DNA from: Thioalkalivibrio sp. XN279
GTDB taxonomy: Bacteria > Pseudomonadota > Gammaproteobacteria > Steroidobacterales > XN24
Assembly: GCF_011089885.1 (NCBI RefSeq)
Contig: NZ_JAANBD010000027.1
Location: 124,001 to 188,000, forward strand
Direction: 5' to 3'
Length of the DNA stretch: 64,000 nucleotides
The translations under genes were made by a program, and so were the position numbers. Below are positions 57,688-59,164 of the stretch, piece after piece. A model generated the notes under the pieces. That model was not told where the DNA came from. It saw only the letters and a program-made list of their open reading frames with translations, and searched no databases. Every line of letters starts with the position of its first letter. Position 1 is the first letter of the stretch.

Positions 57688-58878
57688 CTACCCCGCGGCC
57701 ACCGCCGCGAGCGGCCTCGCCGCCGCCTGGGCACGCTCCAGTGCAGCCTCGAGGTCGGCCACGAGGTCCGCGGTGTCCTCGATGCCAACGGAAAGGCGCA
57801 GCAGGGCGTCGCTGATCCCGGCGACGCGACGCGCCTCCGGGTCCATGGCGGCATGGGTCATGGACGCCGGGTGGGCTACCAGGCTCTCCACGCCACCCAG
57901 CGACTCGGCGAGAAAGAACAACTCGAGACCATCCAGGAACGCCCGCACCGCCGGCTCGCCGCCCGCGAGCTCGAAGCTGAGCATGCCGCCGAAACCGGAC
58001 TGCTGGCGGCAGGCGATGTCATGACCCGGGTGTCCTGGCAGGCCGGGATAATGCACCCGGCTCACGGCTGGATGGCGGCACAGCAGCTCGGCCAGCGCGG
58101 CCGCGTTCTCACCGTGGCTGCGCAGCCGGGCGTGCAGCGTACGGATGCCGCGCAGGGTCATGTAGCTGTCGAACGGCGCGCCGGTGAGGCCGAGGCAATT
58201 GGCCCACCAGTCGAGACGCTCGTGCAACTCCGTGCTGCCGGCCACTACCGCGCCGCCCACCACGTCGCTGTGGCCGTTGAGGTACTTGGTGGTCGAGTGC
58301 AACACGATATCTGCGCCGTGCGCCATGGGCCGCTGCCAGCCGGGCGAAAGGAAGGTGTTGTCAGCGACGAACAGCGTGCCGGTCGTGCGGCACAAGCGCC
58401 CCACCGCATCCAGGTCGGTGATCCGGAGCAAGGGATTGCTCGGCGTCTCGACCAGGATCATGCGCGGCCGCGCGGCGAAGGCGGCCGCCAGCGCCCGCGC
58501 GTCGGACTGGTCAATGAACGACAGGCGGAACTGGCCGCGCGCGGCCAGCGAGGACAGCAGCCGGTGTGTGCCGCCGTAACAGTCGTGCGGCGCCAGCAGC
58601 AGGTCGGCGGGCTCGAGCAGCTGGCACACCAGCGTGATCGCCGCCATGCCCGAGCAGGTCACGACGGTGCCGGCACCGCCCTCGAGCTCGGCCAGCGCCT
58701 CGCCGAGGGCGTCGCGCGTCGGGTTGCCGGAACGCGTGTAATCGTAACGACGCTTGTCGCCGTAGCCGGCAAAAGTGAAGTTCGAACTCAGGTGCAGTGG
58801 CGGCACGACGGCGCCGTGCTGGGTGTCGCTGCCGAGTCCGGACCGGGCGGCACGGGTGGCCGGGGCTCTGTTGCTCAT
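57688..58878 (-). CDS. metB: Cystathionine gamma-synthase
   Basis: PLP enzyme joining an activated homoserine with cysteine to give cystathionine, in methionine synthesis. 396 residues. Seen: DTQHGAVVPPLHLSSNFTF (close to E. coli MetB), DYTRSGNPTRDALGEALAEL, ADNTFLSP and the PLP-lysine motif STTKYLNGHSDVVGG near 197. The C-terminus shows SLGGVESLVAHPASMTHA. GGAGGA precedes the ATG and can be masked by an upstream anti-Shine-Dalgarno. Regulation is by a SAM-I riboswitch in the leader. A close alternative is cystathionine gamma-lyase, but the MetB-like N-terminus and SAM control favour the synthase. Confidence 0.92.
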   Translation of the reverse strand: MSNRAPATRAARSGLGSDTQHGAVVPPLHLSSNFTFAGYGDKRRYDYTRSGNPTRDALGEALAELEGGAGTVVTCSGMAAITLVCQLLEPADLLLAPHDCYGGTHRLLSSLAARGQFRLSFIDQSDARALAAAFAARPRMILVETPSNPLLRITDLDAVGRLCRTTGTLFVADNTFLSPGWQRPMAHGADIVLHSTTKYLNGHSDVVGGAVVAGSTELHERLDWWANCLGLTGAPFDSYMTLRGIRTLHARLRSHGENAAALAELLCRHPAVSRVHYPGLPGHPGHDIACRQQSGFGGMLSFELAGGEPAVRAFLDGLELFFLAESLGGVESLVAHPASMTHAAMDPEARRVAGISDALLRLSVGIEDTADLVADLEAALERAQAAARPLAAVAAG

Positions 58879-58884
58879 GACTCT

Positions 58885-58939
58885 CCTCCGTCTAGGCTCC
58901 CGTGGGAGCGGGTTCGGCTCATCGCGAACCCTGCGGAGG
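58885..58939 (-). promoter_or_regulatory. Riboswitch expression platform masking the metB Shine-Dalgarno
   Basis: On the mRNA, CCUCCG (58939-58934) can pair with CGGAGG (58890-58885), the metB Shine-Dalgarno, six G-C-rich base pairs across two small hairpins (GGGUUCG/CGAACCC and GCUCCC/GGGAGC). This suits translational control. No U-tract terminator is present. The pairing is by eye and was not folded. Confidence 0.5.
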
Positions 58940-58996: not shown

Positions 58997-59126
58997 ACTC
59001 ATCTCCCGGCAAGCGCACGGCATCGGCCGCTTCGCTCCCCGCAGGAGTTGGCACCGTTGCGGGATGGTGAGTCCCGCAGGTTGCCCCGGCATCAAAGGGC
59101 CTGTCCCTCCGCCGGTCTGGATGAGT
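58997..59126 (-). ncRNA. SAM-I (S-box) riboswitch aptamer, metB leader
   Basis: Read on the minus strand: P1 5' ACTCATC (59126-59120) pairs with GATGAGT (59003-58997). The conserved core follows the S-box consensus in order: GGAGGGAC..GGCCC, TTTGATGCC, GGCAACC, a perfect P3 stem (TGCGGGA / TCCCGCA), then CGGTGCCAACTCCTGC, and a P4-like hairpin. It binds S-adenosylmethionine and lowers metB expression when SAM is high. Such riboswitches are most common in Firmicutes and less usual in gammaproteobacteria. Confidence 0.95.
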
Positions 59127-59136
59127 ATGCGTCTCT

Positions 59137-59164
59137 ACTGTAACCGTTCGTGGCGCTCAGGCAA
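59137..59164 (-). promoter_or_regulatory. Putative metB promoter
   Basis: On the minus strand TTGCCT (59164-59159), a 16-base spacer and TACAGT (59142-59137) place transcription start near 59130, a few bases before riboswitch stem P1. Each hexamer matches 4 of 6 consensus positions. The -35 overlaps the leuB stop codon. Confidence 0.5.

Follow-up and report, generated by a model that had tools for sequence, protein, structure and literature searches.

A predicted SAM-I riboswitch upstream of metB in Thioalkalivibrio sp. XN279 and a candidate decoy of its P1 helix in related leaders

The window analysed here, a 64,000-nt stretch of contig NZ_JAANBD010000027.1 of Thioalkalivibrio sp. XN279 (positions 124,001 to 188,000), carries on its minus strand an open reading frame for cystathionine gamma-synthase, metB (396 aa; 57688-58878), preceded by a SAM-I (S-box) aptamer with helices P1-P4 (58996-59127). 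The metB start codon, ATG at 58878, lies 117 nt downstream of the aptamer on the same strand. The identification of the gene as metB in the original prediction, which had been made from the sequence alone, is confirmed by TIGR02080, which scored 587.7 bits (cut-off 504.55) and was the only passing family among the 25 families listed; PRK08776 gave a larger score, 599.8, that nevertheless misses its own cut-off. The upstream neighbour, which we take to be a leuB-like gene, ends at 59157. Two promoter-like hexamers, TTGCCT and TACAGT, separated by a 16-nt spacer, were recognized by eye at 59137-59164 (minus), ending 9 nt before the aptamer, and inspection by eye upstream of the aptamer in five relatives of the window's family found TTGACC in three and TTGACG in one.

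The aptamer is matched end to end by the Rfam model RF00162 (model positions 1-108 of 108; window 59127-58996, minus), with 80.9 bits against a gathering cut-off of 44.4 bits and an E-value of 1.8e-17, computed against 4227 families. This is the sole Rfam match at or above the gathering score within the 64-kb window, and RF00162 is the best-scoring family reported for the site, overlapping matches of the same clan having been reduced to the best one. The S-box core that had been proposed for the leader is present in full. P1 consists of 7 bp between ACTCATC (59120-59126), the proposed switching strand, and GATGAGT (58997-59003), which are paired with each other in the Rfam alignment, where the eighth, outermost model pair is non-standard in the window; the core motifs GGAGGGACAGGCCC, TTTGATGCC, GGCAACC and GGTGCCAACTCC are all found in the aptamer sequence; and the P3 stem, described beforehand as perfect, is indeed uninterrupted in its distal helix, TGCGGGA/TCCCGCA. 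The P4 arm exceeds the consensus length, and non-standard pairs are marked there in the Rfam alignment. The SAH riboswitch model RF01057 matched none of five genomes, this one and four relatives, and the control genomes likewise gave none. Judged by the RF00162 match and the core motifs, a genuine SAM-I riboswitch precedes metB, and it is predicted to sense SAM.

A genome-wide search (3.13 Mb, 29 contigs, 99.9% complete) returned this single RF00162 match and no second S-box leader, and a profile search for MetJ (PF01340), in which the E. coli control was positive, found no match in the genome. The earlier picture of a gammaproteobacterium with SAM-I before metB and without detectable MetJ is therefore supported. 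Enteric MetJ likewise represses met genes with SAM as the signal, as stated in the available part of PMC7270179, but is a protein. Because the genome holds one SAM-I element, RNA control is indicated for metB, and the suggestion of RNA control of methionine synthesis holds to that extent but does not reach the whole pathway.

The implied rarity of such elements among gammaproteobacteria stood at the level of the class, where 10 of 369 sampled genomes carry SAM-I (four of the 10 from the window's order), but not within particular orders. In the window's order, presumably GTDB Steroidobacterales, SAM-I was found in 96 of 196 sampled genomes, and in a second order (around G359), probably Xanthomonas-like to judge by its leaders and met genes, in 127 of 200. 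MetJ was detected in two of the 196 genomes (G014 and G027, both of family f14), and since these sole two carriers both lack a SAM-I match, a changeover between RNA-based and protein-based regulation inside a single order is suggested. SAM-I in gammaproteobacteria has been listed among sporadic occurrences, according to the available part of an earlier survey (PMC2258182, which we take to be Barrick and Breaker, 2007). The large RNA searches behind these genome counts applied stricter filters, by which weak matches are lost. Among the matches listed for the open-access literature, no title named SAM-I in Woeseia or Steroidobacter.

A relative of the window's metB was found by tblastn downstream of 94 of the 99 SAM-I matches in the window's order, either immediately or beyond an intervening gene of roughly 1 kb; the exceptions are G031a, G018, G044a, G029 and G160, for the last of which just 560 nt of sequence are available. 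The gene adjoins the aptamer directly in the window's genus and in family f7, which is probably Woeseiaceae-like and in which G083 carries a distant relative (30.5% identity). The metB match begins about 1.1-1.4 kb downstream in 34 of the 38 matches of family f11, and the same gap occurs in four leaders from three other genera of the window's family (G037, G074, G059 and G067); the intervening gene is presumably metX-like in the four cases that were translated. Among the other targets, G029 has what we take to be a metA-like gene, and G083 what we take to be a metY-like protein of 441 aa. Two SAM-I leaders occur in some genomes of the order: in G128 both (L003/L130) are followed by metB relatives, and in G031 (L007/L131) and G044 (L011/L175) one leader is, the other lying ahead of a metX-like gene for which no metB match was found within 1.5 kb.

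Within the window's genus, the riboswitch and metB appear to have been lost or gained together, because G049 has both, the aptamer scoring 75.1 bits, and G011 (100% complete) lacks the two: it shows no SAM-I match, and its best metB match, at 48% identity, is not a close orthologue. A more distant metB paralogue (48-49% identity to the query) is retained in G011, G000 and G049. In G000, a metX-like stretch (35% identity) lies beside a distant metB-like one at C27:8392-10697, and a second metX-like gene (41%) lies at C28:456138-457202; no SAM-I was found at either place.

Several structural elements are predicted in the 117-nt leader between P1 and metB. When P1 is forced, a P5 hairpin, GCCGGGC...GCCCGGT, is predicted directly 3′ of P1 (58954-58995), followed by an anti-Shine-Dalgarno sequence, CCTCCG (58939-58934), whose predicted partner, CGGAGG (58890-58885), covers the metB Shine-Dalgarno sequence GGAGGAG (58889-58883). 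The duplex of the latter with the 16S rRNA tail scores -10.3, including a start-codon bonus of -0.8 from the script. A P8 hairpin, GGGTTCG-CGATGAGC-CGAACCC (58931-58910), appears in the predicted folds, and its loop holds GATGAG (58923-58918), which copies the 3′ strand of P1, can pair with CTCATC of the 5′ strand and is aligned with the decoys of 35 relatives. A different way of freeing or hiding the ribosome-binding site was considered and set aside: the leader sequence CCGCAGG can pair with the 5′ strand of P4, CCUGCGG, in the window and in many relatives, which would capture the anti-Shine-Dalgarno sequence. Since changes in G190, G024, G056 and G177 track a local hairpin or the Shine-Dalgarno sequence rather than P4 (by eye), this pairing is retained as a possibility for the window, whose decoy-forced fold is predicted to use it.

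Premature transcription termination, intrinsic or Rho-dependent, would be another way to link the aptamer to metB. Intrinsic termination is the mode of earlier characterized SAM-I switches, and Rho was left open in the Xanthomonas study, where the transcriptional fusion fell by about 24% (both from the available part of PMC7270179). GC-rich hairpins lie between P1 and metB in the window, but to the eye none of those in the 117 nt has a U run behind it. The yitJ-type S-box of Bacillus subtilis belongs to the same aptamer family, RF00162, and appears to differ in this respect. Because a stem sequestering the Shine-Dalgarno sequence is predicted instead and has a counterpart in relatives, control by termination is unlikely.

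This counterpart was examined in alignment A1, which consists of the window and 35 Woeseiaceae-type (f7) leaders, 36 in total; G083 was excluded because its gene and platform differ. The bound-state fold (P1, P5, the Shine-Dalgarno stem and P8) is paired in 88.0% of the cells, and 11 pairs show changes on both sides, a number that none of 500 shuffles and none of the slid versions reached. Eight of the 11 belong to P5, one to the Shine-Dalgarno stem and two to P8. The hairpin at the P5 position has both-side changes in 8/8 pairs, with 83.5% of cells paired over the 36 leaders, and the counterpart of the Shine-Dalgarno stem has 94.6% paired. In this register the window itself forms five of the six pairs of the Shine-Dalgarno stem, has three non-pairs in P5 and also has non-pairs in P8; a companion hairpin of the ON state in the relatives (CCCUUGCG with CGCAGGG) makes three of seven pairs in the window. 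Four f11 leaders are built differently (L127, L181, L151 and L180, from G010, G172, G166 and G186): their start codons, as called by script, lie 10-14 nt past P1, which leaves no room for an expression platform, and the SAM-bound aptamer may itself cover the ribosome-binding site.

Some 50-90 nt past the aptamer, the f7 leaders other than G083 carry CGAUGAG or a version of it that differs by one base, and when A1 is folded by RNAalifold without constraint, the 5′ strand of P1 is paired to this decoy and not to its P1 partner. Forcing one or the other helix changes the accessibility of the Shine-Dalgarno sequence in the same direction in 36/36 leaders: its mean unpaired probability is 0.05 with P1 forced and 0.51 with the decoy helix forced (0.17 and 0.56 in the window). 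The two folds are similar in energy (mean difference 0.61 kcal/mol), and in 15 of the 36 the decoy fold is no higher than the P1 fold. In the window, forcing P1 gives a fold 4.8 kcal/mol more stable than forcing the decoy helix; left unconstrained, the same stretch folds to a still lower energy (-128.8), with the Shine-Dalgarno sequence unpaired to 0.17, the same as with P1 forced. The effect is partly inherent in the approach, since nested folding does not allow a Shine-Dalgarno stem that crosses the decoy helix. When only the 5′ strand of P1 is kept single, the Shine-Dalgarno sequence stays closed (mean 0.07; window 0.17), and when only the decoy is kept single, it opens slightly (mean 0.24; window 0.17). 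These model folds suggest, partly by construction, that the Shine-Dalgarno sequence is hidden when P1 forms and more accessible when the decoy helix does.

The decoy helix is paired in 97.6% of the cells of A1 but is nearly invariant, and no covariation was found within these 36 leaders, so that a wider set of 215 leaders from 22 families was assembled. It comprises 99 leaders from the window's order, 114 of 132 from the second order (18 matches were left out) and two, G480 and G427 (families f189 and f133), from outside both orders in the class-wide sample. As judged by eye, P1 varies from family to family, and in many of them the decoy changes with it: CUCAUUG is accompanied by CAAUGAG in f201, ACUCAUUG by CAAUGAGU in f198, CCAUCGAG by CUCGAUGG in f28, and AUGUUAU by AUAACAU in f202 (G627). 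The best helix between the platform and the leader's own P1 5′ strand scores 6.63 on average; the mean is 5.40 when P1 strands of other types are used and 4.99 with mononucleotide shuffles. The score is at least 6 in 161/215 leaders, and the shuffle P is 0.05 or lower individually in 86/215. With one leader per family and P1 permuted between families, the own strand scores 6.76 and the permuted strands 6.05, and one of 1000 draws was as high, kinship being ignored. The signal is uneven: scores of at least 6 are reached by 0/4 leaders in f9 and f15, 15/32 in f195 and 21/38 in f11, and in f197 the helix test gave no excess over other P1 types.

A strict search, in which the six core bases only were used, all six had to pair and at least five of the pairs had to be Watson-Crick, found a decoy in 78/215 leaders. 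The flanking base, which was not used in the search, pairs in 69 of the 78, compared with 62.2 upon within-family permutation and a maximum of 68 in 5000 permutations (kinship ignored). In alignment A2, composed of 22 leaders (20 from f201 and two of the four from f198; G562_C125 and G572_C7 were omitted beforehand because these leaders looked different), the flanking pair is G-C in 13, C-G in seven and U-A in two, unbroken in 22/22 with kinship ignored, and 98.1% of all cells of the decoy helix are paired, with another pair broken in 3/22. Only 2/22 leaders allow the flanking base to pair with its neighbour in P1, and P1, on this sequence evidence, does not explain the covariation of the flanking pair. 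Leaders of two orders, then, have a decoy near the ribosome-binding site that co-varies with P1.

The decoy often contains ATG or GTG, and GATGAG could instead be kept as the start of a short upstream frame, a leader peptide coupled to metB. Three f201 leaders have TTG where the decoy pairing breaks, and in the window a 15-codon frame runs from ATG at 58922 to TGA at 58875 (minus; by eye), overlapping the metB start. Any sequence complementary to CUCAUC, however, has an AUG as a matter of course, some decoys (AUAACAU in f202) lack ATG, and the decoy covaries with P1. When the start is defined as the first NG(A/G)TG at 45-100 nt with N not G, the frames of the 35 Woeseiaceae-type leaders are scattered relative to metB (16, 13 and 6), with no common frame, and they stop within 15 nt of the metB start in 13, before it in seven and beyond it in 15. 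Retention as a peptide start is accordingly quite improbable, and a decoy of P1 is the preferred reading of GATGAG.

In the window, the decoy helix has 6 bp, a shuffle P of 0.11 and a C-C mismatch at the adjoining pair, which makes this leader one of the nine, of 78, in which the flanking base does not pair; G049 has no clear decoy. For these two reasons, the exchange in this genome rests on homology, and the weak 6-bp helix may still work here. A weak decoy, the want of a clear one in G049 and the single copy of the aptamer found in the genome would also fit a degenerate relic aptamer that has lost switching. This is very improbable, given the intact core motifs at 80.9 bits, the retention of the aptamer in G049 at 75.1 bits and the fact that G011, which has no close metB orthologue, has no riboswitch either.

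With the aptamer, its target gene, the predicted sequestering stem and, in relatives, the decoy and its covariation observed by computation, it is highly probable that this SAM-I riboswitch turns metB off when SAM is plentiful and does so by acting on translation. Binding of SAM would close P1, and the leader would then adopt a fold in which the Shine-Dalgarno sequence (58890-58885) is held by CCTCCG (58939-58934), whereby ribosomes could not start on metB. Without SAM, P1 would open, and in the lineage at large its freed 5′ strand would be captured by the decoy near the ribosome-binding site, breaking the sequestering fold. SamR, proposed to control met genes including metB in Xanthomonadales (PMC4239095), could act on metB in addition.

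The closest characterized system is SAM-I Xcc of the Xanthomonas campestris met operon, described in 2018-2020 (PMC6230763; PMC7270179; statements here follow the available parts of both). Its control is mainly translational, with about 98% repression in the translational fusion compared with about 24% in the transcriptional one, and it binds uncharged initiator tRNA (tRNA-fMet) at the anti-Shine-Dalgarno sequence in EMSA (PMC7270179). As in the window, met genes of a gammaproteobacterium lie behind a SAM-I aptamer, no Rho-independent terminator is found (by eye in the window), the Shine-Dalgarno sequence is sequestered (in the window by prediction, and equally with P1 forced or without any constraint) and metJ was not found; metJ is reported missing in Xcc (PMC6230763), although PMC7270179, in its introduction, regards the MetR/MetJ system as conserved as far as Xanthomonas. 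In contrast, metB comes first in the window without metA or metX ahead, and its P1 strand is ACUCAUC, compared with CCAUC in Xcc. The Xanthomonas-like leaders, which are probably the same element as SAM-I Xcc, have a decoy, CUCGAUGG, that is complementary to their P1 5′ strand, CCAUCGAG, and overlaps the published anti-AUG, AUGGC (PMC7270179). Pairing of P1 with a decoy is not described in the available text of that paper, whose SAM-free model may already show it. We consider it fairly probable that the two orders share a strand exchange in which a co-evolved decoy, located within the fold around the ribosome-binding site, competes for the 5′ strand of P1 and, in Xanthomonas, overlaps the anti-AUG.

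Given the experimental precedent in X. campestris (PMC7270179), a switch in the window is no surprise, and the novelty of the riboswitch itself is low. SAM-I before methionine genes is common, not sporadic, in the two sampled gammaproteobacterial orders, and the comparison of decoys across relatives provides an added lead on mechanism. If the decoy exchange holds, it would provide a concrete, testable base-pair model for translational SAM-I switches.
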